This document shows positions 7,269-56,550 of a DNA stretch of 64,000 nucleotides, in pieces (position 1 is the first letter of the stretch; every line of letters starts with the position of its first letter). The position numbers and the translations under genes are program-made. The stretch is from positions 1-64,000 of the forward strand of contig NZ_BATQ01000082.1 of assembly GCF_000739635.1 (NCBI RefSeq), read 5' to 3'. This DNA is from Verrucomicrobium sp. BvORR034. Its GTDB lineage: Bacteria; Verrucomicrobiota; Verrucomicrobiia; Verrucomicrobiales; Verrucomicrobiaceae. The notes beneath the pieces were generated by a model. It saw nothing but the letters and a program-made list of their open reading frames with translations. It ran no database searches and was not told the DNA's origin.

Positions 7269-7384
7269 TGCTACCTCGCCGGAACGGACCGCGGCGCTCT
7301 TTTCGCGCACGATCGTGTGATGGCGCATGCGGTGCGGTGCTCCTTTCGCACGCATAGAATCGGCAACGAAATCTCCCTCTCTCT

Positions 7385-10300
7385 ATGCCCATGCGCTCTC
7401 GATTTGTTCTGCTGTTCCTCTCTGTTCCAGGCTGGCTGGGATGCGCGGTGTTTGCGCTCCTCTCCACAATCGTCGCCCATTCCGCAGATCCAAAAGCAAA
7501 AGCAGCAGACGCAGAACCGCCCGTGGCCCAGTGGAAATTCGAGGGCGGGGATGGACTGGGGGTGTGGCAGGGGAAGGGCTCTCGCCAGGTGCCGGGCCCG
7601 CAGGGGCCGGGGTATCCGACGTTTGCGGCAGGCAACCGGGCGATGGAGCTGGCTGGGCAGGATGCGGCGTTGGTGGTGCCAGACATGCCGGAGCTGCGAT
7701 TTCAAAAGGGCAACTCCATCACGATCGAGATGTGGGTGAAGGTGCGCAAGATCCGCGACGGACAGATCGTGCATCTCATGGGCAAAGGGCGCAATGGAAC
7801 CAGGGAGTTTGGCGACAACAACCAAAACTACGGGCTGCGACTGAGAGGTGGGCAGGGGAGTGCGGCGATCGGGTTTATCTTCACCAGTGCCGCGGCGGAC
7901 GGGCAGGCGGCCAAGTGGCACCGCTGGTGGAGCAACGCGACGTTTCAGACCGACACAGGATGGCATCACCTCGCGGTGACTTACACGTTTGGCAAAAAGG
8001 ACAGCCTGCGGGGATACATTGACGGCGTGGAGGTCAAGGGCGCCTGGGATCTGGGCGGTGCGACCGATGCGGGGCCGGTGCGCGATGGCGATACGCTGGT
8101 CATTGGCACCGGATACACGCGCGGCACGGCGGAGACGCTGGATGGCTGGCTGGACGAGGTGGCCATCCATCGCACCGCGCTGTCTGCGGCCACCTTGAAA
8201 ACGCGCTTCGCGGTGGCTCCGGCACCGGCTCCAGAGATCGATCGCAGCAAGCTGCCGGGCGGACGAGTGCTGGTGGAGCTGTGCGAGAAAGGCGTGCCCC
8301 AGAAGCCCATGTGGCCCGCGGAATCGCCTGTCGCGACGGAGTCATATGTCGAGGAGGTGTTCGGCTTCTCCGAGCTGCCGCAATACTATGTGGCGACCGG
8401 CGTGCGCGGGGATCGCGCGGCGACCTTTATGCTGCGTGCTTCAGCGATGGTGCGGCTGCCGAAGGGTAAAAACCGGCTGCTGCTCCGCGGGCTGGGTGCC
8501 GCCCGGTTGTTCATCGATGGCCAGGAGGTGTTGAAGACGCCATTTCCGCAGCGCGACCGGGCAGGCTATGCCCCTCTGACAGATCAGGACAGCTATCTGG
8601 AGCTCGGCCCCGATTTCCGCTTCGCGCCGCCGGGAAACAGCGAGGTGACGGGCACCTTCACCGGTGATGGTGAAGAGCGCATGGTGGTGTTGGAGACGGT
8701 GGTGGGCGGTGGCTCCGCGGGCAATCCCTTCAGGCCGGAGTTAGGGGAGACGGTGGTGGCCGTTTGTCCAGAGGGAGACACCACCTGGTCTCTGCTGTCC
8801 CCTGGTTCGCGGCAAGTACCCTACACCGACGCGGGCTGGGCGGCCTACGAGGCGGAACGGAGCGCCCACTTCGTGAAGGTGAATGCCGAGGCACGCGCAG
8901 CGCGACGCCACGAGCATGCGCCCTACTGGAATGCACGACGGGATGCCGCGGCTAAGTGGCTGGCTGCCACGCCAGAAGTGCCGGTGCCGGATCTGCCGCC
9001 GGGGTTCCCCATGCACAATACGATTGATCGGTTCCTCGCGGCACGCATCGCCGGGATCGCGGAGGATCGCTCCGCCACACCGGCTGACGGGGTGGACTAC
9101 TACCGCGATGTGCAGCCGATCTTGGAGGCCAAATGCTACAGTTGTCATCAGGGTGGCAGTGCCAAAGGCAAGCTGGGGCTGGACACGCTCGCGGCAGCGC
9201 TGAAGGGCGGCAAATCCGACGGCCCGGCCATCGTGCCAGGCAAGCCTGCGGAGAGTGCCTTGTTCATCCGTGCGACAGCGGATCCGGATGAAATCATGCC
9301 CCCAGAGGGCAAAGGCGAGCCGCTCAATCGTGCGGAGCTGGCAACCCTGGAGCGCTGGATTGCCGAAGGGGCACACTGGCCGGACTTGCGCTTTTCCACG
9401 CTGAAGATGACGCCGCTTGCCGACGATCTGACGTTTCTCCGCCGCGTGACGCTCGATACGGTGGGCCTGGTGCCGAGCGAGAAGGAGGTTCGCGACTTCA
9501 CCGCGGATGAGTCGCCAGACCGGCGTGCGAAGGTGATCGATCGTCTGCTGGCGGACCCTCGCTGGGCGGATCGCTGGATGGGCTACTGGCAGGATGTGCT
9601 GGCGGAGAATCCTAATCTCCTGAACCCTACACTGAACAACACGGGGCCGTTCCGCTGGTGGATCTACGAGTCACTTCTGGATGACAAGCCGATGGACCTG
9701 TTCGTGACGGAGCTGATCCGCATGGAAGGCAGCAGACTCTTTGGCGGACCAGCGGGGTTCGGCATGGCTTCGCAAAATGATGTGCCGATGGCGCAGAAGG
9801 CCATGATCGTGAGCAGCGCCTTTCTGGGGGTGGAGATGAAGTGTGCCCGGTGCCACGATTCCCCGGCCAACCTGACCAAGCAGCAGGATCTTTTCGAGCT
9901 GGCGGCGATGATGGGGAGAAAGCCGATCAAACTGCCGGAGACGAGCAGTGTGCCGCTGGACAGGATTCATCAGAGTGGGCGTGAACCGCTCATCAAGGTC
10001 ACGCTCAAGCCGGGCAGCACCGTGGAGCCCAAGTGGCCGCTGGGCCAGATGAGTTCCGAGAGCGCGGCGGCCTCGCTGGCGATGAAGCCGGATGATTCGC
10101 GCGACCGGCTGGCGGCACTGCTCACCGCGCCGCAGAACACCCGCTTTGCCCAGGTGGTGGTGAACCGCTTCTGGCAGCAGCTCATGGGGCGCGGCATCGT
10201 GGAACCGGTCGAGGACTGGGAGAAGGGGAGGCCTTCGCATCCCGAGCTGCTGGAGTGGTTGGCGCGTGAGTTTGTGCGCTCTGGCTACAGCGCGAAGGCG

Positions 10301-11122
10301 ATCCAGCGTCTCATCCTGAACTCGCACGCCTACCAGCGGCAGGTGGATCCCATGCTGGCTGCCCAGGAGCCCCTCTTTGTCTCGCCTGCGCCACGCCGAC
10401 TGGCAGCAGAGCAGATTGTTGATTCCCTGTTCACCGCCACGGGCAAGCCCTTTGCGCTTGAGGAGATGAGCCTGGACGTTGATGGCGACCGTCGAGCGGA
10501 TTTCGCACTGGCGCTGGGCAAGCCGCGCCGTGCCTGGATGCTGGCCTCCACTTCGAATGAGCGTGACCGCCCGAGCCTCATGCTGCCGCGCATTCAGGCG
10601 GTGGCAGATGTCTTGGAGATCTTTGGCTGGCGGGGAGCTCGCGTGGACCCGGTCAGCAAGCGGGAGACGGCGCCCAATGTCTTGCAACCCGCGATCATCT
10701 CGAACGGCACCGTGGGGGGCTGGCTGACGCGGCTCAGTGATGATCATGCACTCACGCAACTGGCGATGGAAGATCAACCCGTGGATGCGCTGGTGGAGCG
10801 GCTCTTTCTGCGATTGCTCACCCGCAAGCCTTCGGCGGAAGAGCGCACCCTCTATGTCTCTCTGCTAACGGCGGGTTATGCGGAACGCATAGTTCCTGTG
10901 GAAAAACTTCCCAGAGCAACCCCGCCACCTCGCGTGCGTGAGAAATATGTTAGTTGGTCGAACCATGTGGATGCCGCAGCGAATGTGCTGCGCGAGAAGC
11001 ACGCCGAGCTGGCCCGCCGTGGCGATGCGCCTACCTCACGCCTGGAGGCTGACTGGCGGGGCCGCCTGGAAGATGTGGTGTGGGCATTGATCAATGCGCC
11101 GGGCTGGATCACCGCCCCTTGA
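7385..11122 (+). CDS. LamG / planctomycete cytochrome c / DUF1549-DUF1553 protein
   Basis: A 1245-residue exported protein. It has an N-terminal signal (to about residue 34) and a LamG/concanavalin-like lectin domain (about 50-275, IEMWVKV and [11 protein letters not shown]). A linker follows, then a single c-type haem site CYSCH at 584-588 in a planctomycete cytochrome c (PSCyt1) domain. DUF1549 (from about 670, with a second CARCH at 820-824) and DUF1553 (from about 890) complete it. Proteins with this domain set are thought to act at the cell surface in polysaccharide use or sulfatase-linked degradation; the exact reaction is unknown. It is the first gene of a co-directional run with a DUF1501 gene and a two-component system. 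A start two codons later (7391) is equally possible. Confidence 0.9.
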
Positions 11123-11177
11123 TGCAGACACACACACATACACACACTCTCTTTCTTTTACTCCTTCCCCCTCGATC

Positions 11178-12473
11178 ATGAATACCACCTCAACCCGCCA
11201 CCTCAGCCGTCGCCGTTTTCTACAGCAGAGCGCCGCGTTCGCGGCCGCTCCCTTGTTGCCGGGCCTGATGAAGGCGGCCGCGCCGATGCCTGTGGGCAAA
11301 GCGGAACACTGCATCTTTATCTGGCTGGGCGGCGGCATGGCGCAAGTTGATACCTTTGACCCCAAACGTCGTGGTAACCCCAAGGCGTCGCCAAAAGTAG
11401 CAGGCTCGGATTACGCAGCGATCGACACCTCCGTGCCCGGCGTGCAGTTCACCGAGCATCTCCCCCAGCTCGCCCGTATGGCGGAGCGGATGACGGTGGT
11501 GCGTACGGTCAATCATCATGTGGTGGATGAGCACGCCTTCGCCACCAACCTGGTTCATACAGGGCGGATGATCAGCGGCACGGTGATCTATCCTTCCATC
11601 GGCTCCATCGTGGCCCAGCAACGCGGCGCGGCCGATCCGGACGTGCCTGCCTACATGCTCATGGGATTCCCTAGTGTGAGCCGGGGTCCGGGATTTCTCG
11701 GGGCGCGCCATGGCTATGTCTATCTCACGGACACGGAGTCTGGACCGGCGGGATTCACACGCCCTGAATGGGTGAACATGGATCGCACCGCGCGGCGGCA
11801 GGCCTTGCTGAAACCGTTGCTGGAAAAAGCGCCGGAGGGCACCATGGCCGGGGAATACGAAGAGGCGCAACGTGAAGCCTTGCGGCTGGCGGGACCGGGC
11901 TTCATGCGGCACTTCAAGCTCGATGAAGAGCCCGGTACCCTGCGGCAGCAGTACGGAGGCGAGTTCGGCCAGCGCTGCCTGCTGGCTCGGCGGCTGGTGC
12001 AGGCTGGAGTGCGCTTCATCGAGGTGTCGCAAAATCTGAATTTCATCAACGGCACCGGCTGGGACACGCACAACGAAGGTCAGATCAATCAGCACACGCT
12101 CATCCGTGATCTGGACACTGCCGTCTCTGCCTTGCTCCTGGATCTGGAGGAGAAGAAGCTGCTCGACAAGACCCTGGTCGTGATGGCCACAGAGTTTGGC
12201 CGCCCTCCAGAGTTCGACGGACGCGGTGGGCGTGGACATCAGGGCACCACCTTCAGCATGGTGCTGGCGGGTGGCGGATTGAAACACTGCGGCGCCTATG
12301 GCGTGACGGATGAGCTTTCTAAAAACATCGCGGAGAATCCGGTGTCGATCCCGGACTTTCACGCGACGATTCACGCGGCCATGGGCATCAATCCCCATCG
12401 GGCGCTGATGGACGGTTCGCGCCCCATCCCCATCACGGATGAAGGCAAACCTATTGCCTCGCTGTTCGGTTGA
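11178..12473 (+). CDS. DUF1501 family protein with Tat signal
   Basis: A 431-residue protein beginning with a twin-arginine signal ([11 protein letters not shown], then an Ala-rich stretch), so it is exported folded. The body has alkaline-phosphatase-superfamily-like DUF1501 features: [17 protein letters not shown] near the start, GWDTHNEG in the middle and [20 protein letters not shown] near the end. DUF1501 genes nearly always follow DUF1549/DUF1553 genes, as here, and the two are assumed to work together on sulfated or complex glycans. The 55-base gap holds a CA-rich simple repeat. The longer frame from 11094 begins inside the previous gene and is rejected. Confidence 0.9.
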
Positions 12474-12489
12474 TGTGTAGAGTGCCTGA

Positions 12490-14586
12490 ATGCCTCCGCG
12501 CCCCTGCATGATCGCAATCCGCCTGCCAGCCTTGAGCTGGCTGGCCGTGCTGGGAAGCAGTCTGGTGTGCGCGATGGCGTTCGGCGTGGAGACGCCCTTG
12601 AGAACCGCTCTGGAGGTGCGGTCACTGTCGCCGGAGGAAGCGGAAAAAGAGCTGCCCGTGGCGCTGCAGGGGACGGTGATCTTTGTGGACCCGCGAGGAT
12701 CGGTGCTCGTCCAGGACAAGACGGCGGGAACGTTCTTTCGCGGCTCAGACGTGATGTCGCTGCGGGTGGGGGATGAAGTGGGGGTTCGAGGTGTCACCTC
12801 GCCGGGCATGTATCTGCCGGGCATCCAAAAAGCCACTTTTGAAAAGCTGGGGCATGGGGCGACGCCACCTGCTGCCCTGGTGTCCTACGCTGATCTGCTC
12901 TCCGGCCGCTATCACTACCAACTGGTGGCGGCGGAAGGCATCGTGCAGTCCGTGACGGCCAGTGGAGACGGGGATCACACGATCCTTCACCTGGCGATGG
13001 ATCAGGACCTGCTGGAGGTGGATGTCTACGCGCCGCCGAAGGAAAGGCATCTGCTGGTGGACAGCCGGGTGCGAATCGAAGGGCTGGCCGCCGGGACGAT
13101 CAATCACCGGCGGCAGCTCCTCCAGCCCATCTTGTGGTTGCAGGACTGGAGCTGGCTCAAGGTGTTGAAGGCTGCTCCTCCCGTGCAGGATGTGCCGACC
13201 ATCTCCGCCAGCAAGCTGCTGGCCTTCAGAGTGGTGGGTCAGAACGGACATCGCGTACGCGTCGCGGGCACGGTCGTCGCTGCCTTTTCAGACGGCACGG
13301 TCTTTATTCGCGATGGGACGACGGCGCTCGGTCTGCAACTTCACCCACCCATTTCGTTGAGTGCAGGCGCATGGATCGAAGCCGTCGGCTTTCCGAAGAT
13401 ACAGCGCTTTGGCGCATCCCTGGTCAACACGCACCTCATTCGACAGGGGCCTGGGCCAGAACCTCCCGCGATTGAGTCGAGCCTGACCGATCTCTTGAAC
13501 GGTGCGCATGACAACGATCTGGTCGCTGTGACCGCGACTCTCACCGGCAGCTTCAGAGCGGAGGAGGGGCAGGTGCTGGTGCTGCAGGAGGGCGGCATCA
13601 CCTTTCGCGTCTCGGCACCGCTGCTGGAGCATGAGCCGCCAGTCGGCACACGCGTACGTGTCACCGGAATTTGCCAGGTGGACTCTATCAAGATGACTCC
13701 TTCAGGCATCCAGTCAGTGCCACGTACGGTAAGCCTGCGCTGCCGCCGTGCTGATGACGTGGCGGTGCTCAACTCGCCCTCATGGTGGACGGTGCGGCGG
13801 TTGGCCCTGGTGGTGGGCGTGCTGCTGTTCGCGATGGGGCTGGCGGGGCTGTGGATCACGGTGCTACGGCGTCAGGTGCGGCGTCAGACGACGGCATTGC
13901 GCTGGCGGATCGAGCGCGAAGCCGCGCATGATGAGCGGCAGCGGATCGCGCGTGAGTTTCATGATACCCTGGAGCAGGGACTCACCGGGCTGCTGCTGCG
14001 GCTCGAGGCCGTGCAGGCACATGGTGTCAATGAAAAAGGGGATCACCTGCTGCGCGCCTCTCGCGGCCTGGTCTCGCAGATGCAGGTGGAGACGCGCAGC
14101 CTGGTCTCCGAGTTGCGCGTGCCTTCCCAGGAAAACGCGGACCTCGTGGCGGCGTTGCAGGCCATCGTGGACGAGCACCCTCTGGGCTGTGGTCCCGTTC
14201 TGAAACTGGAAGCCAGCGCCCCCATGCCTCCACTTCCATCCCGCACCGTTCATCATCTGCGCATGATCGCGCGAGAGGGGGTGACCAATGCGCTGAAACA
14301 CGCCCGCGCGGGCTGCATCCGCCTCGCTCTGGCAGTGGAAGGGAGCCGCTTGCGGATGACTATCGCGGACGATGGACAAGGCTTTGACTCCGAGGCGCTG
14401 CACGGCGGACAAACGGGACACTTCGGCTGCATTGGGATTGAGGAGCGTTGCGCAAAGTTCGGCGGTATCGCCCTCTGGCGTTCCGCATCAGGGCAGGGCA
14501 CCACCCTGGAGATCGAACTGACGCTGGAAACCTCCGCCGCGGCTGCCCATGGGCACGCCGCCAAACATTTGCTGCTCCATTCATGA
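12490..14586 (+). CDS. Membrane sensor histidine kinase (NarL-type, HisKA_3)
   Basis: A 698-residue kinase. After a signal/anchor at the N-terminus come about 400 periplasmic residues with roughly three repeats of an OB-fold-like pattern (for example GTVIFVDPRGSVLVQD). One transmembrane helix follows (LALVVGVLLFAMGLAGLWIT, about 438-457), then a HisKA_3 dimerisation domain with phospho-acceptor His491 in REFHDTLEQG. The HATPase_c domain has an N box TNALKHA and a G box DDGQGFD. An alternative start at 12508 gives a tighter signal peptide. Its stop overlaps the start of the response regulator by 4 bases. The unusual sensor domain and its position after the DUF1549/DUF1501 genes suggest it senses their substrate or cell-surface state. 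Confidence 0.9.
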   Translation: MPPRPCMIAIRLPALSWLAVLGSSLVCAMAFGVETPLRTALEVRSLSPEEAEKELPVALQGTVIFVDPRGSVLVQDKTAGTFFRGSDVMSLRVGDEVGVRGVTSPGMYLPGIQKATFEKLGHGATPPAALVSYADLLSGRYHYQLVAAEGIVQSVTASGDGDHTILHLAMDQDLLEVDVYAPPKERHLLVDSRVRIEGLAAGTINHRRQLLQPILWLQDWSWLKVLKAAPPVQDVPTISASKLLAFRVVGQNGHRVRVAGTVVAAFSDGTVFIRDGTTALGLQLHPPISLSAGAWIEAVGFPKIQRFGASLVNTHLIRQGPGPEPPAIESSLTDLLNGAHDNDLVAVTATLTGSFRAEEGQVLVLQEGGITFRVSAPLLEHEPPVGTRVRVTGICQVDSIKMTPSGIQSVPRTVSLRCRRADDVAVLNSPSWWTVRRLALVVGVLLFAMGLAGLWITVLRRQVRRQTTALRWRIEREAAHDERQRIAREFHDTLEQGLTGLLLRLEAVQAHGVNEKGDHLLRASRGLVSQMQVETRSLVSELRVPSQENADLVAALQAIVDEHPLGCGPVLKLEASAPMPPLPSRTVHHLRMIAREGVTNALKHARAGCIRLALAVEGSRLRMTIADDGQGFDSEALHGGQTGHFGCIGIEERCAKFGGIALWRSASGQGTTLEIELTLETSAAAAHGHAAKHLLLHS

Positions 14587-15206
14587 CCACTCCGCTGACC
14601 GTTCTCATTGTCGATGATCATTTCGTCGTGCGGAGCGGTCTGGCCGCGGCGCTCGAGGTTGAGAGCGACGTCAAGGTCGTCGGCGAAGCGAAGCGTGGAG
14701 AAGACGCGCTGGAGGTGTACCAGCTCCGGCGGCCTGGTGTGGTGCTGATGGATCTGCAACTGCCTGGGATCACCGGCGTGCAGGCCACAGCCGTACTGCG
14801 GGCTCATGATCCACAGGCCCGCATCCTGGTTTACTCCACCTTTGCCCACGATGACGAAGTGCAGATGGCGCTGGACGCCGGGGCGGCGGGCTATCTACAG
14901 AAGACTGCCTCTCGCGACGAGCTGCTGACGGCGCTGCGGCGGGTGGCCGCGGGCGGAAGCTATCTTTCGCCTGAACTGGCGCAACGCCTGGCGGATCTGC
15001 GCCTGTGCGTCGGGATCTCCATGCGTGAGCGGGAGATCCTGGAACTGATCGCGAAAGGACACGCGAACAAACAGATCGCCGCATTGTTTGCCATCTCCGA
15101 AGACACGGTGAAACGCCATGTGAGCCACATCCTCGAGAAACTCGGTGTGCATGACCGCGCGCAGGCCACTGCGGAAGCCATCCGGCGTGGGATTGTGAGA
15201 GTCTGA
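14583..15206 (+). CDS. NarL/LuxR-family response regulator
   Basis: A 207-residue protein with a receiver domain: acidic pair D11-D12, phospho-acceptor D57 in VVLMDLQLPG and a conserved lysine in YLQKTAS. A LuxR-type helix-turn-helix follows: MREREILELIAKGHANKQIA, then SEDTVKRHVSHILEKLGV. It is translationally coupled to the kinase at 12490-14586 by an ATGA overlap and is its obvious partner. Phosphorylation should let it bind DNA as a dimer; targets are probably the upstream DUF1549/DUF1501 genes, but no operator is evident. Confidence 0.95.
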   Translation: MTTPLTVLIVDDHFVVRSGLAAALEVESDVKVVGEAKRGEDALEVYQLRRPGVVLMDLQLPGITGVQATAVLRAHDPQARILVYSTFAHDDEVQMALDAGAAGYLQKTASRDELLTALRRVAAGGSYLSPELAQRLADLRLCVGISMREREILELIAKGHANKQIAALFAISEDTVKRHVSHILEKLGVHDRAQATAEAIRRGIVRV

Positions 15207-15418
15207 TCCCGACCTCGTCCTTGCGGACGGTTATCCAGGTCTCACGAGCACTTGGGTATGCCGTCAGAGGTGATGAGAAATGCCGGGAAATTGCAGCAAT
15301 GGATTTTGTCAAGGGACCAGGTGTCCCCAAATGGTGCATGATGAGAGGGAGACGGGGTGGGGTGGTTTTGCCATGATCTTGATCAATATCAAGCAGTGCT
15401 TCCACTCCAAAGCGTTCT

Positions 15419-16288
15419 ATGAAACTATCTTTTGCGACCTTGAAAACGGCCAGACCGGCCACATCACGATTCTCCGGTGGAATGAAGGGCAAAGGCTCCT
15501 TCTGCCTGACGTTGCTGGCTCTGGCGTGTCTTGTGGTACCGGCTCAGTCTGCGGTGACCCTTGGACTGTGGGATTTCAATAATGCGGCGGAGCTAAATTT
15601 CCTGAATACGGCACAGGGGGCTGGACCCTATGCTGGAAGCACCTACTCGAACGCTGCTGGTGCCGTACCCCATCTGACCGTATCGAGCCTCAGCGTGGGT
15701 TCGGGCTTGAGAACCAACGGTGGAGCAGGAACGATTAGCAGTGTCGGCACAGCGGTTTCGCCCAGCTACAACGGCGTCATGGGTGTAGGGGGCAGCAATC
15801 CGTATGTCTTTCCTTCAGCAGCGGCAGCGACAGCATCGCCCGCCGCCGCGATGACGGCGAGCGACTATTTCTCCGTCACGTTGACCCCTGAGAGCGGCTA
15901 CGCGCTTAACTTGACCGAGATCAGCTTCTACGCTTGGGCAAATCAAACCAACACGTCAGGCAGCTATACCTATTTTGTGCAGAGCAGCGCGACGGGCAGC
16001 ACCATCCTTGGCACCACGACCAAAGCCTACAATACTACGGGCGCGGTGGTGGACAATAGCACCGCGCCATCCTCCTCCAATCTCTACTCCTTTGACCTGA
16101 GCGCCTACTCGGCTGATCTGATGAACGTCAGCACCCCGATCACGTTCACCGTAGGCGTGTACTCAACGACCAACGGCAGCCTGCGTCTCGACAGTCTTCA
16201 GATTCAGGGAGACGTCGTTCCCGAACCCTCCCGGGCTCTCCTCCTCGGCGTGGCCCTGGGCTGCTGCCTGCTGCGCCGCCGTCGTTGA
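15419..16288 (+). CDS. PEP-CTERM sorted secreted protein
   Basis: A 289-residue protein with a signal peptide (hydrophobic core about residues 29-43, cleavage after AQSA) and a C-terminal PEP-CTERM tail: VPEPS, a hydrophobic helix, then a terminal run of four arginines. Such tails are cut by exosortase and the proteins go to the cell surface or into exopolymer. The body is rich in Ser, Thr, Asn and Gly and looks like a beta-sandwich adhesin. A start at 15482 (MKGKGSF) gives a more standard signal length. It lies alone between the response regulator and the GntR gene. No exosortase gene is in the window. Confidence 0.85.
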   Translation: MKLSFATLKTARPATSRFSGGMKGKGSFCLTLLALACLVVPAQSAVTLGLWDFNNAAELNFLNTAQGAGPYAGSTYSNAAGAVPHLTVSSLSVGSGLRTNGGAGTISSVGTAVSPSYNGVMGVGGSNPYVFPSAAAATASPAAAMTASDYFSVTLTPESGYALNLTEISFYAWANQTNTSGSYTYFVQSSATGSTILGTTTKAYNTTGAVVDNSTAPSSSNLYSFDLSAYSADLMNVSTPITFTVGVYSTTNGSLRLDSLQIQGDVVPEPSRALLLGVALGCCLLRRRR

Positions 16289-30070: not shown

Positions 30071-30231
30071 AAAAATATCTGCATTTGTGCAATGAACTGA
30101 TTGTATTGAAGCAATCAATGAAATCAAGAGTAATTTTGCCTTTTCAAGGCGAGCGATCCATTGGCCACAGTGATCGAAGACGATCAAGCCTTCTGGTCAA
30201 GTAACGGGCTACCTTTAATCCTTTCAACAAG

Positions 30232-30336
30232 CTGCACTGTTTGCCCGCTTCATGGATGAGTAGCTTTCATAGTCCCGCCTCCTGCATCTGTCGGAGGTTG
30301 TCCATTACGCTACGGCGTCGGATGGCTTCGATGTCC
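30232..30336 (-). pseudogene. Relic of the coiled-coil gene found at 45212-46558
   Basis: This sequence matches two parts of the N-terminal coding region of the 45212-46558 gene. One is the stretch around 46350-46425 (shared GCACTGTTTGCCCGCTTC and CCCGCCTCCTGCATCT). The other is 46515-46534 (GGCGTCGGATGGCTTCGATG). About 90 bases between them are deleted and several substitutions are present. It cannot encode a product. It ends exactly where a 98-bp repeat unit begins. Confidence 0.7.
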
Positions 30337-30434
30337 GGCGGGCGCTGCGTTGAGAGAATAGAAGAGCCGTCCCGGCTCTTTGGGGTGCTGTGTGATGTGG
30401 GGAACAAGAACCGGGGCGGTTCTTTTACCTTGCC
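30337..30434. repeat. Single copy of the 98-bp repeat
   Basis: It shares the same landmarks as the three-unit array at 6969-7268: GGCGGGCGCTGCGTTG at the start, then AGAGCCGTCCCGGCTCTT, then GGGGAACAAGAACCG, then a C/T-rich end. It is more diverged in the second inverted repeat (GGGGCGG in place of GAGACGG). Confidence 0.8.
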
Positions 30435-30435
30435 C

Positions 30436-30640
30436 GAGCCGCACGGCCATGAGGCCGAATTTACGGAAGGTTTCGGCGATGTGTTCGTGGGTCATGCCCA
30501 AGGTCTTCCCATTCTCCTCGGCGATCAGCAGGCCGTGGCTGAGAGCAAGCTGGCGGGCAAACCATTTGATGCCCCGCAGTGCTCAGGTGGCGATGGCTTC
30601 TTCTTCGACGGTGAAATCCGATTCCGCACCCACACGCTGA
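30436..30640 (-). pseudogene. Decayed open frame of unknown origin
   Basis: On the minus strand this reads as a helical protein fragment (FTVEEEAIAT, then a stop, then ALRGIKWFARQLALSHGLL and MTHEHIAETFRKFGLMAVRL) interrupted by an in-frame TGA. The protein-like composition on both sides of the stop suggests a broken gene. I do not recognise the family. Confidence 0.35.
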
Positions 30641-30643
30641 GAC

Positions 30644-31390
30644 TCATCGTGCACTGTCGATGATCATCCCGCCATCCGGGACCAGGCTATAGCCCGTCAC
30701 AAACTGCGCATCCTTGCTCGCCAGAAACAGAACAACAGGAGCAATGTCCTCTTCAGGCGAGCCGAAGCGTGAGAGCGCATTGGGAGGCGGCGGCGCATTT
30801 GATTCTGCTGCACCCCATGTGTCCGCCACGGGCAGCATGTTGTTTACCGTAATATTGTCGGGACCCCATTCGCGGGCCGCTGCCCTGGTGAGCGCCCGAA
30901 CAGCTTCCTTGGCCATCGCGTAGGGAGTGTAAGGCAACAGGGCTACGACTCCGGCAGCCGATGCAAAATTGATGACACGCCCCTGCCCACTAGCCTTCAA
31001 ATGCGGGTAGCAGGCTTGCATTAAACGCAAGTAGGCTATCGGTCCCATTTCGAAATTACGTTGCAATTTCTCGACTGACATATCGATGACCGAGGAGAAG
31101 ACGGCAGACGGATCGAAGGCGTTATTCACCAGGATGTCAACTCCGCCGAAGGCAGCAACGACCTTGTCCACAGCTTTCTTGATCTGATCGGCATCGCTGA
31201 TATCGCACGCCACGCCAAGCGCGGTGCCTCCCGCAGCCTCGATTTCAGAGACCACCGCATTCACATTGGCAGGAGTAAGTGATACTACTGCCACCTTTGC
31301 GCCTTCAGCCGCAAACAGTTTGGCTGTCGCACGGCCGATGCCGCGACCTGCACCTGTAACAATTGCAATTTTACCTTCTAGTCGGTTCAT
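30644..31390 (-). CDS. Short-chain dehydrogenase/reductase
   Basis: A 248-residue classical SDR. It has the NAD(P)-binding loop TGAGRGIGRATA (about 12-23), the NNA motif in DILVNNAFDPS, and the catalytic Ser and Tyr-x3-Lys in FASAAGVVALLPYTPYAMAK. The DGGMIIDSA ending is typical of SDRs near FabG. The normal NNAG is NNAF here. The ATG at 31390 has a GGAAA upstream; the frame extends 23 codons further but into a poor region. It is divergent from an HxlR regulator, the usual layout for redox- or aldehyde-induced reductases. The substrate is unknown. Confidence 0.9.
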   Translation of the reverse strand: MNRLEGKIAIVTGAGRGIGRATAKLFAAEGAKVAVVSLTPANVNAVVSEIEAAGGTALGVACDISDADQIKKAVDKVVAAFGGVDILVNNAFDPSAVFSSVIDMSVEKLQRNFEMGPIAYLRLMQACYPHLKASGQGRVINFASAAGVVALLPYTPYAMAKEAVRALTRAAAREWGPDNITVNNMLPVADTWGAAESNAPPPPNALSRFGSPEEDIAPVVLFLASKDAQFVTGYSLVPDGGMIIDSAR

Positions 31391-37930: not shown

Positions 37931-38325
37931 TCACTCAACTATAAATGGGTGACTGTGAGAGCTCAACACTCTGTGTCCAGCAAGGGGCCGCAGGTGTGTC
38001 CACGGAATAATGGCGGTGCGGGCGAGCGCACTTTACGAACCTCCTACGGGATTAATCTGGTTTTGGGCCTGCTGGGATCGTTTCTTACGTTTCAGGTCTC
38101 TAGAGCAGAATGATCAAACGAGTCGGCACGCAACGCCTCTGAATCTGTTTTGTGTAAGGATTTCTGGCCAGTTCAAGCTTTGCAAAAAATCAGTCGGCGA
38201 CACCTCGCCGCCCGTAGGGACTGGAGCATCGACAGAGCCAGAATAGTTTGGGGGCAAGATGGATCAAATGGGTGGCGACCAGTGGCACATCCTTTTGAAA
38301 ATGCCTTGACGCCATCCAGATGGAA
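37931..38325. other. Gene-free stretch containing a deletion copy of the 57.5-58.2 kb region
   Basis: Bases 38007-38073 match 57543-57605 and bases 38090-38180 match about 58102-58192. The roughly 490 bases between those matches at 57.6-58.1 kb are absent here. No gene is evident. Confidence 0.6.
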
Positions 38326-43869: not shown

Positions 43870-44125
43870 ACGGAAGAACGCAAAGCGGCTGTTCCACAGC
43901 ACATGCTGATCCTTGTATGAGACAGGCACACGGGGACATCTTCCCCGGCTCATTCATTGTTAGAGACTCTTCTCACGTCGACGATCAGCGCACTAATCTT
44001 CCTCCCATATGGGAGCATATGGGGAAAGGGGAGAGATTCGACCCCTCGGTAGCTCTTGGTTAGTCGCCCAAGTTTTCGAGTCGTGCACCTCAAACCGGGC
44101 TGAGTCATCCGCCTGCCAAGGGAGA
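43870..44125. other. Intergenic stretch, no gene
   Basis: A short space between convergent blocks. It contains a small hairpin (GGGGACATCTTCCCC, about 43931-43945) that may end transcription from the pump gene, but there is no T-run. Confidence 0.4.
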
Positions 44126-44791
44126 TTACTTCGGCGGTAGCAGACCGAAGTGACTGTAGGCGACGAAGACTAAGGGCTTGGCCCAGGCGGGTATGTCCGT
44201 CAAGGCCTCCGGGGGTGGATAGCTGAGTTGCTTCTCGTCGATCGCCAGCAGCAGTCGGGGCTCCGGGGGCTGGCCCTGGGCAGGGTCCCGCTCGGCGGAA
44301 TTGTCATAAACCCGCAAGGTTGTTACTGAAGGGATCAGGCGGATGAGATTGGCCATACTGGCGGTCCAGCGCTTGCGGATTTCACGCTCAGGGATGTCAT
44401 GGCCGCCTTTGCGAATTCTTGCGGCTACGCGCTGCAGATGCAGTTCCACGTTCGCCAGGCCAGCATACCAGATTTGCAGTCTCGCTCCTGTAGCGGCCGC
44501 TTCCAACAACAGCCGCGTGATGGTGTTGCCTCCTAGAGTGGTCTCGAAAGTGAAATGCCCGCCTTCGGCAATGGCCTTTTCCAATCGCCGTTTGCCCTCC
44601 TGCCAAGCCAGGCCGTTGGATTCGGAAACGTCAAGGCCCGGCTGGATCGTCATCAGCTTCCGCGCGGCTTCATCCGGATTGAAGTACTCAGCGCCTTGCG
44701 CCCGCAGATGCGCGCCGCCGATACTGCTCTTGCCAGCGCCATTCACGCCCGCAAGCACGGTAATAACTGCCTGTCGTTCCGGGGTGCTCAT
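44126..44791 (-). CDS. Zeta-toxin-like P-loop kinase
   Basis: A 221-residue protein. The P-loop AGVNGAGKSS (14-23), then FNPDEAARKL and FTFETTLGGNTI, match the zeta/PezT toxin layout, in which the kinase phosphorylates UDP-N-acetylglucosamine and stops wall growth. Its start overlaps by 4 bases the stop of a Phd-like antitoxin gene. That pairing differs from classic epsilon-zeta, where the antitoxin is a different fold. The last 40 residues (proline-rich) are outside the core. Confidence 0.8.
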   Translation of the reverse strand: MSTPERQAVITVLAGVNGAGKSSIGGAHLRAQGAEYFNPDEAARKLMTIQPGLDVSESNGLAWQEGKRRLEKAIAEGGHFTFETTLGGNTITRLLLEAAATGARLQIWYAGLANVELHLQRVAARIRKGGHDIPEREIRKRWTASMANLIRLIPSVTTLRVYDNSAERDPAQGQPPEPRLLLAIDEKQLSYPPPEALTDIPAWAKPLVFVAYSHFGLLPPK

Positions 44792-45162
44792 TCACCCTGA
44801 GCGGCGGCGGCTTTCACAGCGGATTTACCCAGCTCAGTGGGGGTGGCGCTGAAGAGGGAATTCACTCCTCGTTGGGCTGAGGGGGTGTTCATTCTTGCCA
44901 CCATGGCATCGAACTCTGCGCTCAGCGCTTCAAGAGGCATCTGATGAGTGCGCTGGAGCTCCAAATATTTCGCAGCAGGGAGCAGGACGAACTCTGGCCG
45001 GTTGTGACGGGTAATGGCCAAGCCGTTACCCGCCGCCTTGAGCAGGGCCTCACCGATGTGATTTTTCAGACTGCTGGCGCTCATGGCCGGCAGTTTTTTC
45101 AAGGTGGCAAGCCCGACGTCAGATGTGGCTGGATCCGCGCTCATATTGGCTATTTTAGCCAT
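44788..45162 (-). CDS. Phd/YefM-type antitoxin
   Basis: A 124-residue protein with a prevent-host-death core: SASSLKNHIGEALLKAAGN, GLAITRHNRPEFVLLPAAKYL. The N-terminal part is the usual DNA-binding and dimer domain of Phd proteins; the C-terminal part would bind and neutralise the neighbouring zeta-like toxin. The ATG at 45162 is chosen (a second lies at 45144). A palindrome overlaps it. The frame runs open to 45270, but that part lacks a plausible start. The gene is followed with a 4-base overlap by the toxin gene. Confidence 0.8.
   Translation of the reverse strand: MAKIANMSADPATSDVGLATLKKLPAMSASSLKNHIGEALLKAAGNGLAITRHNRPEFVLLPAAKYLELQRTHQMPLEALSAEFDAMVARMNTPSAQRGVNSLFSATPTELGKSAVKAAAAQGE
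45147..45161. promoter_or_regulatory. Palindrome at the antitoxin start codon
   Basis: TGGCTA and TAGCCA flank TTT, a perfect 15-base inverted repeat overlapping the start region of the Phd-like antitoxin gene. Phd proteins repress their own operons at such sites. Confidence 0.6.
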
Positions 45163-45211: not shown

Positions 45212-46558
45212 TCACGCCCTGGACGCACCGCCCAATCCCTCTCTGCGCGGCACGTCTCGTCCTTGTTCACCCGCCGGGTTCGGCACCGCCTTCAGCGGGA
45301 TCGCTCCCGCTGGGTGGGCGTGCACCAAACTGGCCTGGAAGCCTTCGTCGCTCAGCACATCGCGGGCTTTTTCGAACTCGTTGCACCAGGTTTCCTCGAC
45401 TTCGCGGTCGCGGAGGGGATCGCGGCCGGAGGCATTGAAGGCGACGACGCGGGATTGGACGGCGTTGCCTTGGGCGGGGGCGCTGAGTTCCACGCCGTAG
45501 GCGGCGTCGCCGGGCTTGCGGAGGACGATGCGGCCCTGTTCCACCCAGGCGGTGGTCATGCCCTCACGCACCTCATAACCGGCGGCGCTGAGGGCGCGGA
45601 GGACAGCGGCGCGTTGCTCCTGGCGGGTTTCCTCGGCAAAGGTCTGATCGACCCAGGAGCGGGCTTCTTGAACGAGGGCGCGGGTGGACTCCAAAGGGGC
45701 GGCTGACGGGCCGAGCGCGGCGGTGAGACGTTGCTTCCAGTCGGCGACAGCAGGCGAGTGGAGTTCCTCCATCTCGGCGAGCAGCAGGGCCAGCTCTTTG
45801 CGGAGGGCGAGGGCGGCCCGGCGGTTTTGCAGGGAGGAGGACAGCTCCAGCGCTAGGGAATCGAGGAGCAACGCCTGCTGGTCCGCAGGAGAGGTGGTGG
45901 TACGCCGGGCCTTTTCGGTCAGGTCTTGAAGTTCGGGTGAGTCCGCGGAGTCCACCACGGCGGAGAGCTCGGCAAGGAGGGCCCAGCATTTTTCCAAACG
46001 CAGCTCCTGGGGATCGGCGGGAAGCTGGGGAAGGGGCGAGTTCGATGAAACGGCATCGGGATCCATGAGACCAGTGGCGAGCTCGCGCAGTCGGCTGGAG
46101 CTTTCCTGATGCTGCTGCTGTCCGATGAAGTCCAACGCCTCGCCCAGGGCGCTCTGCTGCTCCGCGGGATCCGCACTACGGAGTTGCCCAAGAAGGCGGT
46201 CCCGCTCTGGGGTGCCGGGCAGGGTTTGCAGTTGGGCGGTCATCTGGGTCGCCCCCTGCAGGAGCCGATGGGCGCGGCGCAGGCTGGCCGCCTGATCGGC
46301 GACCTGACGCTGGCGCAGGCGGCGGGCCTCTTCCTCATAGAAGCCGCACTGTTTGCCCGCTTCCTGGATAAGAGGCTCCCAGAGCCCCGCCTCCTGCATC
46401 TGGCGGAGACGGTCCATCACGCTGGAGGTCTGGGACTCCGCCGCCTGCCAGCGATCGCAATCGGCGAGAGCGGCATCGAGCCGTTGGAGCAGGGCCAGGC
46501 TTTCACGCTTCTGACGGCGTCGGATGGCTTCGATGTTGATGACTTTGGGGCCGCTCAT
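45212..46558 (-). CDS. Large coiled-coil protein of the kinase-helicase block
   Basis: A 448-residue acidic protein with long amphipathic helices: heptad-like Gln/Arg/Glu/Leu repeats from about 10 to 320, then a more compact C-terminal domain (YEVREGMTTAWVEQGRIVLR, then GDAAYGVELSAPAQ and SGRDPLRDREVEETWCNEFE). I know no family. It is on the same strand as the kinase-helicase gene with a 266-bp gap and is the last gene of the four-gene block. It may be the structural or adaptor subunit. A decayed fragment of a second copy lies at 30232-30336. Confidence 0.7.
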   Translation of the reverse strand: MSGPKVINIEAIRRRQKRESLALLQRLDAALADCDRWQAAESQTSSVMDRLRQMQEAGLWEPLIQEAGKQCGFYEEEARRLRQRQVADQAASLRRAHRLLQGATQMTAQLQTLPGTPERDRLLGQLRSADPAEQQSALGEALDFIGQQQHQESSSRLRELATGLMDPDAVSSNSPLPQLPADPQELRLEKCWALLAELSAVVDSADSPELQDLTEKARRTTTSPADQQALLLDSLALELSSSLQNRRAALALRKELALLLAEMEELHSPAVADWKQRLTAALGPSAAPLESTRALVQEARSWVDQTFAEETRQEQRAAVLRALSAAGYEVREGMTTAWVEQGRIVLRKPGDAAYGVELSAPAQGNAVQSRVVAFNASGRDPLRDREVEETWCNEFEKARDVLSDEGFQASLVHAHPAGAIPLKAVPNPAGEQGRDVPRREGLGGASRA

Positions 46559-46824: not shown

Positions 46825-49800
46825 TCAAGCAGATAGGGCGCGCTGGATGGCGGTGCGGAGGCGTTGCTGTTCTGAGGGGCGGTCGTGATACCAGCGGCGG
46901 GAGTTGACCCTGTGCAGGTGGGGGATGGAACTGCGGAGGACGGAGGGACGCCAGAGCTCGCGGGCGCGGGCGGAGGCGAGCACGGGATGATGGTGGGAGT
47001 CACACTCAATGCCGAGCCCAAACTGCCCGGTGGTGGGGTGGGTGATGGCGAAGTCCAGGCCGAAGGCATCGCCCTGGGCGGGGACGGGTTCGTGCCCCAA
47101 CTGGCGGATGAACGCGCCGACCTCCTCCACAAAACGGGAGGCTGCGGCCCTTCTCTGATGCTGGGGGAAGTGCGAGGCGTGCTGCCCGTTGACGGCATGC
47201 AGGAGCTGGCGGCTCTGCTCGAACTCACCAGCATGCAAGCGCTCCGCATAGGCGAGCCAGCCCTGGAGGAAATCCCGCGGAGTGGACGGTGGGCGGCGTC
47301 CGCCTTGACCTGACCAGGTGCTGACCTCCCCCACGGGCATGGAAGTGATGAGCAGCACCTTCTCCCGCGCACGAGTGACGGCGACATTCAAGCGGCGCTC
47401 GCCGCCGTGCTGACCCAGCACGCCGAAGTTCCGACGGAAGATGCCGCGATGATCCCGGCTGAAGGTGGTGGAGAAGATGATCCAGTCCCGCTCATCGCCC
47501 TGGACGTTCTCCAGGTTCTTCACGAAGAAGCCCATGTCCTCCCCGTTCTGGGTGCGGCTTAGCTCCTCGATCCAGGCCGTGCGGAAGGCCTCATCCTGCT
47601 CGGCCAGATCTTCCATCTCCTGTTCGATCAGCTCCGCCTGCTTGAGGTTAAAGGTGACAACACCGATGCTGGGCCGCTGCTCAGCGGGCTGACGCCAGAT
47701 CTCCTGAAGGCGGAACACGACGCGGGCGGCCTCGTCTTCATTGGTCTGATCAAAGTACTCGCCCTCCACGCGATCCACCTCCATCGGCCGGGCGCGGAGG
47801 ATCTCGCTATCGGGGTGGCGGGCGGGGACGCTGAGGCGGTTCGCGTAGAACGCAGCGTTCGAGAAATCAATGAGCTGGCGGTAGCGCGAGCGGTAGTGGA
47901 TTTCCAGCGTGGCGGTGGGCAGGAGGTTCTGCGCCAGGGTGAGGAGGTCCGGGCAGTCCTTCACCTCGCGACGTCCCGCGGCCTGGGCGAGACGCTCCCT
48001 CTCGAGTTCGTCCAGGCCCGCGTCATCAGCGGCCAGCCACGAGTCGGCATCCTCCTCCTCATCCGACTCCAGGTGGGAGCCAAAGAAGCGCGAGGGCGGC
48101 ATCTGTTTCTCATCCCCGCTGACCACCATGCGCCTGGCGCGGAACAGGGCGGGGAGCGCACTCTCCACCGGGAGCTGGGACGCCTCATCGAAGATGACCA
48201 CGTCAAACAAGCCGGGCCGCAGCGGGAAAAGGCGGCTGACCATTTCCGGGTTCATCATCCACACGGGGCGGAGGTGGAGGAGACCGAGGGGCTCACCCCG
48301 CTCCACCACCTCCCTGAGACGGCGGGCCCGCGGGCCGGTGAACATGACCACGTCATCCCAATGACTGCGCGGGGAGAGCGGAGCATCTGCGGCGCACCGG
48401 CTGAGCAGGTGGCGGTTCGCCTCGCGGAACTCCTGGTCCTTCTGCCCCAGCAGGCGTACTTTTTCCTCGAACTCATCGCTCTCGATCAACAGCGAGGGAT
48501 GGGACTCTTCCAGCAGGCGCTTCCATTCCAGCAGGGCCTCGCGCTGCAGGGTGGCGGTGACCTGATCCGGGAGGCGGGAGGAAGGCAGCGCAGACCAGGT
48601 GGCCTCCTTCTCGCGCAGCTTCGCGTACACCGCGAATGCCACCGGGCTGAGCGACTGGGCGCGGGCGCGGAAGGTCTGAAACTCCGGCAGGGTGGGAAAG
48701 GCGGCGGCCAGCGGCTCCAGGGGCACGCTGCCCGGCGCATGGGTGTCGATTTCCTCTAACCGGGTGCTGATCCACCCGGGCGTGAACCACGGGCGCAACT
48801 GGTCCAGCCTGAGCTTGCTCTCGCAGTCCGCCGGCCACAGGGAGAGGCTGGCGTGGCAGGCGTCCAGTACTGAGGCGCAGAGGGCGGGGTCGCCCCCTTG
48901 GAGGAGGGTGCTCGCGGCGAGTTGGACGGGGCAGGATTGCACACGGCGGGCGGCGGCGAGCACGAGCTGCATCTGCTCGATGAGGGGCCGGATCTGGCGC
49001 TGCATCACAGGCAGAGGTGTCGCGCTGCCCGGCTCGATGAGGCCCAGCACCTCCAGCCACTGCGTCAGCATGGGCCGGTCCTGGCGCAGCTCGTTTTCCA
49101 GCTCGGCGGCCTGGTGGAGCGTGGTGAGATCCACATTGTCCGGGCCCACCCCGGCCTGGGTGAGCCAGCGGTGCAGCTTGTTCCGCGCAAAGAAGCGGGT
49201 GGGGTTGAGCTTCTCCCAAAAGGAGGCGGGCGCAGCCAGGCGTGCGGCATCGCGGGAGAGCTGCCGCAGAGGCGCATCGCCGCGCTCAGCGAGCCTGGCG
49301 TAGAGCCTGGCATCCAGCGTCCAGCGGGTGAGCACGGCCAGCTTCTGGCTCAATCCCTCCAGCCAGGGGACGAGTTGATTTGCGGAAGAGGATGCGTCCG
49401 TGCCCCCCTTGGCGAGATGGGCCGCCCATTGCGACAGGTGGCGGACGACGGGGGCGGGCAGGGCCCGCAGGGCAGCCTCATGCTCGGCAAGCCAGCTTTT
49501 CAACTGCTCCGGTGAATCGAGGCTGAAGAAGTGGTCGTGCTGACGCAGGAGGGCATGGCGGTGCCGTTCCGCCTGCTGAAAGGCCTCGAACGCCTGGCGA
49601 AACTCGACGAGCGTGGACTCGTTCGTACTGAAATAGCTCAGGTCATGCAGCGGGCTCTGCTCATACTGCGCCCTCAGCCACAGCGGTGTGAGCGGGGCCA
49701 TCTCTGCGATCATCTGCCAGGCCCCGGCGTGATCGAGTTCGCGGAATAACGCGCCCACGCCCGGATGAGAGGTGATGGGGGAGCGTTCGCTTTCGAGCTG

Positions 49801-52800
49801 GAGGAGCTCGTCCAGCACCTCGCGGTAGGAGAGGTGGCCAGGTCGGTCGGCGGGCCCCTCATGCAGGGCCAGATGGGCGCTGGTGAGCTCCCTCTCCAGC
49901 GAGTCTATATGGCGGGCCAGTCCTTCGCGCTCGCGTTGCAGGCGGGCATTGTCGTGGGGGGAGTGGGCGGGCTGCTCCAGCTGGCCGCGCAGATCCTGCA
50001 GGGTGGGGCGCCGGTCAGAGGTGGTGTCCTTCAGGTAGAACAGGCGTCCCCCCAGGCCCTCGGTATCCAGGCGCTTGCGGACCACCTCCAGCGCGGCCTG
50101 CTTCTGGCAGACGATGAGGACCCGCTCCCCGCGGCCGATGGCATCGCTCACGATATTGACGATGGTCTGGCTCTTCCCCGTGCCGGGAGGTCCCTGTACC
50201 AGCAGGCCGGGGCCGTGACGGGTGCGGAAGACGGCGCTCTGTTGCGAGGGATCTGAGGCCGCGGTGAAGTAGCGGTCCAGCTCCGCGGGCAGAGTGGACG
50301 GGGGCTCTGGTGCATCGGTGGCATCCCCCGCGCGGATCGCTGTCTCCAGGGCGGTGCCTTGCAAGGGGATGCCCTTCGAGATCTGGTCGATGTCCTGTGC
50401 GATGGTCTGGCCGGAGAAGTCACAATGAAATAACACCGCCGCCGCATGGAGCTGGATGGCACCTGGGGTGCCAGTGACGGTGGCGGGCGGCAGCGGACAC
50501 AAATCGGGACCCGACTCCATGGCGGGCGGCAGCGTGGCCAGTGGGCTGAACGCATCCAGCACGGCCTGGAGATCGAGGTGGTCCCGGGCGCGGAGGTCAT
50601 TCAGCATGTCCCGCCAGCTGGGGAAGGCGGGGCCGAGCAGCCCCTCCAGGGCAGGATTCGGGCGGATCTCGCGTTCTTCATCGAACCCGAGCTTCACCGT
50701 GCTTCGCTGGCCGGCGGGCATGTCCAGCCGCACCGGCCAGAGCAGCACGGGGGCGATGCGGGGCTTGGCCGACTCTGAGGCGCGTGCGTCCCGCAACACA
50801 ATGAAGGGGAAGCCGAGGTAGAGCGGATTGATGCCCGTGTCCCGGCGGTAGGAGAGGGCGTTCTGCGCGAGACGGCGCAGGCGTTTCTCGCGGAGCGGCT
50901 CTGCCAGCAGCGGGGTGGGATCCAGGCTGAGCGGCAGCTGGAGCCGGGTCAACACGGCATCCAGCAGGGCGAGGGCGGGCCGCCCGGGGCCGCCAAGTTC
51001 CGTGAGATCCAGCCGGGCAGAGGTGCGGCCGATGGTCATGCGGATGAGGCCGCCGCGTTGCAGGCCGGTGACGAGCCGGCGGTGGAAGAAGTGCAGGATG
51101 TTCCGCACGTACTCCTGCCGGGCGGGCTCACGCCACTCCTCCTGGGGAATGGCCAGCAGCACGAGGGCCCGAGCGAGGGTGATGCGACGGTCCTGACGGA
51201 AGTCATCCGCCCACTGATCCGGGATCTGGCGACCGCAGCGGGCGAAGTTTTGCAGCCGCTGATCCACGGCCTTGAGGATCTCCGCCCGGCTGTGTGCGAA
51301 CCACGCGGCCATGGGTTCAGGAGTAAACGGAACCTGCGCACGATGGGCCTCCCGGCCGGCCTCCTTCAGCACATCCGACGCGGGGCGGAAATGGGCCTGG
51401 GATGCGGAGATGAGCAGGATGAGGTCCTCCTCAGTGGGGCTGCGGCGCTGGGCGAGGGAGATGAGGGCGGGGTGCTCTGCCTCCGGGTAGAGACGGCGCT
51501 GCTGGGCCCAGCGATTCTCCAGCATGGTCTGGGAGGTGGCCAGCATGGCGGCGGAGAGCTGGGTTTCATCGAACTCCAGATCCAGCTCCCGCACGCGGGT
51601 CCGGAGGCGCTCGGCGCGCTCCTTCAGCCGCACGAGCCAGGTCTCGCGGCCCAGTTGCCGCAACCTGTGGGGGAGGGGGCTGTCGAGCCACTGCCAGGCG
51701 GTGTCTGGGTGGGAGAGCAACCAGCTCGGCGTGATGATCTCCCCGCGCAGGCAGAGGGGCAGGTGATCATTGAGCAGGAGCAGGGCGGCGCTCAGGCGGG
51801 CGTCTTCCGGCAGGGTGGTCTCCGCTGCCACATCGCGCACCTGGGCGGCGCGGGTGAGATCGCGTTCACTGCTTCTTTCCTGCAACCACGTGGAAATCCG
51901 GCCGCTCAGGAGGAGATCGCGGGCCTCCTCCCAATGGGCGGCCTCGACGGCGGCGAGGGCGAAACTCTCCGGCGTGGGCCAGGTGCGGCCCCCCAGGCTC
52001 AGGGTGACGCCGGAGGACGGGGACTCGTCGCGATGGTCAGAGTAGCCATGCGGGATGCCGCGCTCGCCCTGGAGCCAGCGTTCCACCTGGGGCCAGCTCC
52101 AGCGCAGGGAGGGATCCCGGGCGAGCAGCCCTTTCAGCAGCTCCTGCCAGTCCGGTGGCAGGTCAGCTGGCACCTGAAGGCCGCGTGTGACCAGGTGGAG
52201 CAGGAAGGCCCGCTCGTGTACGCCCTCGAACCCCCGCCCCTCGGTGAGCATCTCCAGCACCATGACGCCGAGGCTCCACCAGTCCGACGCGGGTGAGCAG
52301 GTGCCGGCGATGGTCTCCGGCGCGGCATAGCGGGTGGTCTGCCGGGAGAGCGTGAGTTGCAGATCGAACTCGCTGACGGTGGCAGTGCTGAAGTCTGCCA
52401 GCACCAGATCCAGCGGCTCCCGGCTCCGCACCAGCACATTGGCCGGCTTCAGATCCCGGTGGATGATGTGGATCTGGGCCAGGGCGTGCAAGGCGGGGCC
52501 GAGCTGGGCAACCACGTGCCGGACGATCTCTGGACGGGCCTTCTCCTGCGGGGGGATGTCGCCCAGCGTGCCGTGCGGATGGTATTCCCAGACTTCATAC
52601 GCCCGATCCTCATGACGCCCGGAATCGAGCAACCGCACACCGTGGGCGGCATCCAGGGTGCGCAGCGCAGGGTACAAGGAAATTTCCGGCTCGATGCCGC
52701 GCCGGTAGTGCTTGAAGACGCCCGTGGCATCCGCCTGGGTGGCCAGGCGCAGGTCAGACTCCCCGGAATGAACCGGCAGCTCCTCGCCCAAGGTCCAGCC

Positions 52801-53157: not shown

Positions 53158-53831
53158 GCGAATACAGGAACGGAAATGGAGGAGGGCCCTTCGAGGCTCC
53201 CGTCGGTAGCGGTGGAGGCGTAGCCTGCCTCCGCCAGCGTGCGCTGGATCAGCGCGAGGCTGCCGGGGTCGGGGATGCCGGCCATCCAGAGGGTGTCCCC
53301 TTCAAAACACACGTCCAGGGCCTTCGGCAGGGCTTCGCGGAGGGCATGCTGCCACGCGGTGTAGCGCTCGTGGCCCAAGGGGGAGAGCAGGTGCAGGCGT
53401 TGATTGTCTGAACCCCGCCAGGCCAGCGTCTGCGGGGCCGAGCGGAGGAAGGGATCACTGATGACGGCGTCTGCCAGGCCGGGCCAGCGGGCGAGGTGAG
53501 GGGCGATCTTTTCCCAAGGCTGGCCGGAGTAGATGAGCAGGTCCTTGCCCGGGCCGATCTCGCGGCGCAGGGTTTCCAGCAGGGCCTGCAGGGCGTCCAC
53601 CTGCTCAAAGGGTTCGCCTCCGGAGAGCGTGATGCCATCGGCCTCTGCCAGCCAGAGAGAGATCGTGCGCATGACCTCCGCCACCGTGGTCTCGCCCTGC
53701 CCGTGCGCCCAGGTATCCACACTGATGCAGCCCGGGCAGTGCAGGCTGCAGCCCTGAAACCAGATGCCCACCCGGCGCCCGGGACCGAGCGTGGTCACGG
53801 GGAAGTGCAGACGGCTGAGGAAGAGGCGCAT
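53154..53831 (-). CDS. NrdG-like radical SAM protein
   Basis: A 225-residue protein of the small radical SAM/NrdG type. It has an Fe-S cluster motif C28-x3-C32-x2-C35 (QGCSLHCPGCISVDTW) and the SAM-binding GGE motif in ITLSGGEPFEQVDAL. NrdG activates anaerobic ribonucleotide reductase by making a glycyl radical, but no nrdD gene is present, so this copy must have another partner. Its stop and the start of the kinase-helicase gene overlap by 4 bases, making them one translational unit. Its role in the block is unknown; it may make a modified nucleotide or activate a partner. Confidence 0.85.
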   Translation of the reverse strand: MRLFLSRLHFPVTTLGPGRRVGIWFQGCSLHCPGCISVDTWAHGQGETTVAEVMRTISLWLAEADGITLSGGEPFEQVDALQALLETLRREIGPGKDLLIYSGQPWEKIAPHLARWPGLADAVISDPFLRSAPQTLAWRGSDNQRLHLLSPLGHERYTAWQHALREALPKALDVCFEGDTLWMAGIPDPGSLALIQRTLAEAGYASTATDGSLEGPSSISVPVFA

Positions 53832-56436: not shown

Positions 56437-56550
56437 TGAGAATATTTTGAAGGGGTGTTTCGCGCATTCTGGGAATCCGATTCCTGGCAGGTTAAGGGAT
56501 TTATACAGGAGGATGCAGACTGGGGAAGGGCACGATTTCGAAATCCAGTT

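Follow-up and report, generated by a model that had tools for sequence, protein, structure and literature searches.

A decayed gene fragment beside a dispersed REPIN, probably left by an extra gene copy in a layered tRNA-Ser(CGA) island region of Verrucomicrobium sp. BvORR034

The DNA analysed here, called the window throughout, is a stretch of 64,000 nucleotides from Verrucomicrobium sp. BvORR034 (contig NZ_BATQ01000082.1, positions 1 to 64,000). It carries a four-gene operon, which we refer to as the block, and a short relic that resembles part of the operon's last gene and abuts a 98-bp repeat. The features concerned are the following.

30229-30311, minus strand: 3' segment of the relic, equivalent to gene bases 46341-46423 (residues about 46-73), 69 of 83 bases identical
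30312-30334, minus strand: 5' segment of the relic, equivalent to gene bases 46514-46536 (residues 8-15), 23 of 23 bases identical
30335-30432, no strand assigned: 98-bp repeat unit, a GTAG-type REPIN plus flank, with REPs at 30358-30380 (plus) and 30406-30428 (minus)
30433-30648, minus strand: unrelated second relic, derived from the C-terminal part of a regulator of LuxR/GerE type, with one stop and reduced length
45212-46558, minus strand: intact parent gene of the first relic, 448 aa, coiled-coil according to the first-pass annotation, no Pfam family at E 0.001
46424-46513, minus strand: the 90 bp of the parent gene absent from the relic
46825-53157, minus strand: giant protein with kinase, DUF4011/SF1 helicase and MTES_1575 nuclease (Pfam)
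53154-53831, minus strand: radical SAM activase-like protein (PF13353; NrdG-like below cut-off)
53850-55682, minus strand: ClpB-like AAA+ protein (PF07724; ClpB-like below cut-off)

Both segments of the relic match the parent gene clearly, with E values of 1e-19 for the 3' segment and 4e-6 for the 5' segment in a search within the 64-kb window. The first-pass annotation had noticed this resemblance from the letters, and on alignment it stands well above chance, the relic scoring 96 against the gene while the best of 500 dinucleotide shuffles of the relic reached 28. At the protein level the match has an E value of 1.4e-5 with the single gene product and 0.009 with a four-sequence profile; an extension of the relic to about 30189 is seen in a gapped protein alignment only and is uncertain. 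Relic and gene disagree at 14 of 106 bases, and the 3' segment of the relic holds one in-frame TGA. As for the 90 bp, the gene was aligned with three orthologs, and all three have the stretch (one residue shorter in two of them), so the gap is a deletion in the relic and an insertion in the intact gene is ruled out. Combining clear homology with disabling changes, the relic is a pseudogene fragment, the product of ordinary gene decay, and we infer that it has no function of its own. The first-pass range of 30232-30434 was correct within 3 bases at both ends, and a deletion-bearing piece of the N-terminal part of the gene does end exactly where the repeat starts (relic to 30334, unit from 30335). 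The accompanying claim that a second copy of the gene once existed or was copied by recombination is supported in so far as at least the 5' part of the gene must formerly have been here a second time; the same relic lies at the corresponding place in the sister genome G002 (3' segment at C64:28969-29051).

Identity between the window's own genome (G000) and G002 is 98.6-100% over 29.0-32.5 kb and roughly 95% in most of the surroundings, in genes and spacers alike. Selection holding the relic unchanged was considered and rejected, identity over 29.0-32.5 kb being similarly high in genes and spacers; a recently exchanged segment fits the data and explains the high identity better than selection on the relic would. 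Two other segments of high identity between the two genomes are 38.3-43.5 kb (97.6-99.8%) and 54.5-56.5 kb (98.8-99.8%).

The repeat beside the relic has relatives in the window itself.

6967-7260, no strand assigned: three tandem 98-bp REPIN units, recognised by sequence matches to 30335-30432

The unit at 30335-30432 is 84-86% identical to these three, and in both places two inverted REPs form one unit that spans 71 bp end to end (30358-30428 and 6990-7060). The REPs at 6990-7012 (plus) and 7038-7060 (minus) match the pattern exactly, those beside the relic with one mismatch each. Searching for GTAGNAGARCCGNNNCGGYTCTT with at most one mismatch, a procedure that counts a few palindromes on both strands, gave at least 74 matches in G000, at least 97 in G002 and at least 86 in the congener G003; the reversed pattern, used as a control, gave 0. 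The unit thus has many dispersed copies in three genomes of the genus. Folding z-scores against shuffles were -3.5 and -4.9 for two copies, each REP folding separately in the first and both REPs making up one hairpin in the second. In G003 two REPIN arrays, their units about 96 bp long, flank a Y1-transposase reading frame that spans 265 codons from stop to stop (C1:2184994-2186672, L097).

As far as the available parts of the two sources describe them, these features agree with the literature picture of REPINs and RAYT transposases (PMC3116915) and with the GTAG class of REPs reported for the PVC group, in which O. terrae is named (PMC3733652). The likeness lies in the inverted GTAG doublet, the many dispersed copies, the tandem arrays that include flanking sequence and the Y1 frame between arrays in G003. 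Unlike the systems set out in those parts, the pattern has 0 matches in G004 and G014, which belong to the same family, and the Y1 loci inspected in G000 are without REPs: at 10 of 15 Y1 matches, those inspected, no such palindrome or unit was found within loci of 2.2-3.3 kb, nor in two of them widened to about 4 kb.

On the other side of the repeat, a protein search matched the LuxR-type relic at 30427-30648 and found relatives in three other genomes (4 of 288 genomes searched, its own included). The relatives' reading frames in two of them, of 280 and 262 aa, score 23.0 and 29.2 bits with PF00196, for which the cut-off is 23.5. The REPIN therefore sits between two unrelated decayed gene ends. 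Repeats had been taken at first pass to mark the edge of a copied block; because the REPIN is dispersed in three genomes and an unrelated LuxR-type scrap lies on its far side, this repeat is not a block marker and is instead a dispersed REPIN of the genus.

The operon's last gene has further scraps. In G002 a second and separate one, covering residues 359-418 of the 3' part, follows a tandem array of four REPIN units at a distance of about 240 bp; its position corresponds to about 6.7 kb of the window. The metagenome assembly G022 has a 121-bp tail of the gene, 98% identical, in another contig beside unrelated DNA, and this tail copy may reflect strain mixture.

The N-terminal relic and the C-terminal scrap of G002 could be imagined as the two ends of one former gene, parted by 23 kb of inserted DNA through REPIN recombination, since both are on the same strand, in the right order, and have REPINs to the 5' side, directly adjoining (0 bp) in one case and about 240 bp off in the other. 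Their divergence from the intact gene is, however, unequal, with 46 of 180 mismatches in the C-terminal scrap and 14 of 106 in the N-terminal relic (Fisher p 0.016); against the G002 gene the same comparison gave p 0.002, the entry for the G002 N-terminal scrap being 10/106 though only 104 bases aligned. The C-terminal part is, by eye, better conserved than the N-terminal part in the orthologs, yet the C-terminal scrap is the more diverged, and in G003 the segment beside it (window 6785-16288) is conserved but has no copy of the gene. We regard a single split copy as very unlikely. The C-terminal scrap is also about equidistant from the intact genes (60% identity to G002, 58% to G000, 54% to G004 and 53% to G022), and because of this and its greater divergence the two scraps are probably of different age.

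A moving REPIN might also have carried a piece of the gene with it and so spread fragments of the gene. The exact abutment at 30334/30335 and the array near the second scrap, at about 240 bp, would suit such a capture, but among 39 matches to the relic and repeat in the own genome none except the relic itself and the intact gene involved the gene part. Moreover, REPs have 7.3% of the G002 contig's first 80 kb in their neighbourhood of 250 bp (2.3% for the G000 contig), so the nearness of the second scrap to a REPIN is weak evidence, and we give this origin hardly any credence.

Further relics of the AAA+, radical SAM or giant genes had been suggested as something to look for. A search of the own genome with the giant gene returned its intact copy plus ten matches, all of them to the kinase part, and a giant-gene scrap was accordingly rejected; for the AAA+ and the radical SAM gene, searches that covered the window, three G003 stretches and 80 kb of the sister contig brought no relic to light. 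Two candidate pieces of the coiled-coil gene were rejected as well, one at G000 C196 (E 0.06, antisense to other reading frames) and one at G002 C200 (E 0.87). We also screened 38 open reading frames of the window for displaced fragments at E 1e-6; the targets were two stretches of G003, 80 kb of the G002 contig and the frames' own contig as far as 84 kb, counting hits that cover less than 80% of the frame and skipping its own place. Six of the 38 showed hits. The hit of frame 7385 is the edge of a fetched stretch; those of 15419 are such an edge and a gene-end similarity to 22805, whose own hit is this same similarity (PEP-CTERM-like by eye, not called by Pfam); that of 34948 is a synteny break; and that of 57503 is an island end with a displaced copy at 38010-38072. 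This leaves 45212, the last gene of the operon, as the sole frame with displaced fragments otherwise unaccounted for.

The relic could owe its existence to the repair of a break, for example by template switching, in which a short stretch of the gene, 16 kb away, was copied in as filler; a whole second copy would then never have existed here. The clear match is just about 106 bp long and in two pieces, the G022 tail likewise stands alone beside unrelated DNA, and scraps of the other three operon genes were absent where searched. Against such filler, the adjoining LuxR-type relic is internally shortened too, which fits the gradual decay of whole genes, and the 14 differences in 106 bases mean that a capture event would not be recent. 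On balance we think this origin unlikely.

What brackets the block is found at a tRNA gene, and four further features of the window are needed here.

44012-44110, minus strand: decayed tRNA-Ser(CGA) copy on the far side of the block, 80% identical to the tRNA over 99 bp
16288-57549, no strand assigned: stretch of about 41 kb with block and relic, missing at this place in the congener G003
57543-57605, no strand assigned: junction at which homology to the tRNA-side island end of G002 stops (at 57549), with other DNA beyond
38010-38072, no strand assigned: possible island-end remnant, a repeat of 57543-57605, 84% over 63 bp

ARAGORN places tRNA-Ser at C119:75142-75232 in G000, at C64:6067-6157 in G002 and at L072:16996-17086 in G003. 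G002 has a second copy at C64:18377-18474, 94% identical, and its coiled-coil gene ends at about 18350, just before that copy, so that the four-gene operon there lies within about 12.3 kb between the tRNA gene and its repeat. In G000 the corresponding copy is the decayed one at 44012-44110; the window holds no tRNA and no Rfam family at gathering score. Read from the sequence, then, the block has a tRNA-Ser(CGA) gene on one side and a decayed copy of that gene on the other, and these, not the 98-bp repeat, bracket it. In G003 the conserved flanks of 16288-57549 are about 2.5 kb apart with other DNA between them, and homology with G002 stops at G002 6158, one base past tRNA-Ser. Parts of 16.3-28.8 kb have counterparts of 68-75% identity elsewhere in G003.

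Between 57549 of the window and the tRNA at C119:75142, G000 has a further 17.6 kb not seen in G002. This stretch (L099) has genes for an AAA ATPase and an S8 protease and four reading frames without a Pfam match, and a DUF6538/Phage_integrase frame (L099:9249-11078) lies 63 bp from tRNA-Ser. The repeats at 38010 and 57543 share their first seven bases with the tRNA end and could represent ends of related islands, though the shared seven bases are weak evidence because the ten-base word ATGGCGGTGC found in both repeats occurs twice inside the giant gene as well.

Islands usually duplicate only the 3' part of a tRNA gene. The present region shares with tRNA-associated islands that grow by accretion (PMC7563491 and PMC5704250) the tRNA target, the flanking repeat, the integrase beside the tRNA in G000 and the absence at the same place in a relative. 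It differs in that its tRNA copy is full-length, and among the genes scanned in the block island of roughly 12 kb no integrase was recognised. An old tandem duplication of the tRNA gene would give the same bracket, the copy being full-length. A scan of 50 kb around the operon of G004 gave a tRNA-Arg, at a distance of about 16 kb, but no tRNA-Ser.

We consider it likely that the relic is what remains of a further copy, whole or partial, that the operon's last gene once had in a layered tRNA-Ser(CGA) island region. Successive DNA islands would have been taken up at one tRNA-Ser(CGA) gene, with the relic lying in an older layer. The extra gene copy would have come with, or been copied into, that earlier layer and would then have been worn down by small ordinary deletions; the REPIN may have inserted at the edge of the relic, or a deletion may have joined the two. 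Counting against this explanation, the relic sits outside the bracket, 14 kb past the decayed tRNA copy, and since the sequence beside it yielded no remnant of a tRNA or integrase gene, its membership of a former tRNA island is something we infer. A bolder form, which seems improbable to us, has operon-bearing islands entering and leaving the same tRNA-Ser neighbourhood several times, with the last gene as the part that stays behind in scraps. It builds on three different scraps of that gene in three genomes (the N-terminal one in G000 and G002, the C-terminal one in G002, the tail in G022), and on the last gene adjoining the attachment site while the other three operon genes are without scraps where searched. 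On the layered-island explanation that we favour, the relic would be a fossil of an earlier copy, and the block can be studied as a tRNA-hot-spot island with a layered history once the repeat is taken for the dispersed REPIN that it is.

Orthologs of the operon's last gene were found in G002, G004, G022 and at L071; the 448-aa protein occurs in 4 of 57 genomes, its own included, and a profile of the gene matched 2 of 387 genomes of the phylum (its own and one partial match). The order of AAA+, radical SAM, giant and 448-aa genes is kept at L049 and L071, judged from the sizes of the reading frames and the coiled-coil match. The giant protein is ProA- and PDC-S37-like and also resembles Hhe, sharing with ProA (NCBIfam NF058533), Hhe (NF042953) and PDC-S37 (PADLOC) the half that holds the DUF4011-type helicase and MTES_1575 nuclease. 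It differs in its N-terminal kinase domain and in scores that stay below the curated cut-offs (490 bits against 1500 for ProA, 320 against 2000 for Hhe). An anti-phage function of the operon is probable, going by the resemblances of the giant protein and its neighbours. In the available part of PMC10250203, the P. aeruginosa defence hotspot cDHS1 is flanked by a DUF4011 gene, a radical SAM gene and a small gene; in the block, too, a large DUF4011 gene goes together with a radical SAM gene and a hypothetical gene of small size, near variable defence genes, a likeness by description only. Those flanks are core there, whereas the operon's last gene is confined here to the few genomes just counted.

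Two pairs of genes adjoin the block. At 44126-45150, between it and the decayed tRNA copy, lie an AAA_33/Zeta-like gene and a gene for a Phd/YefM-type antitoxin; 80 kb of the G002 contig showed no counterpart of either. The other pair, at the block island's tRNA end, consists of a phosphotransferase-family gene (PF01636) at 56580-57506, which adjoins a TetR-type gene at 55846-56613.
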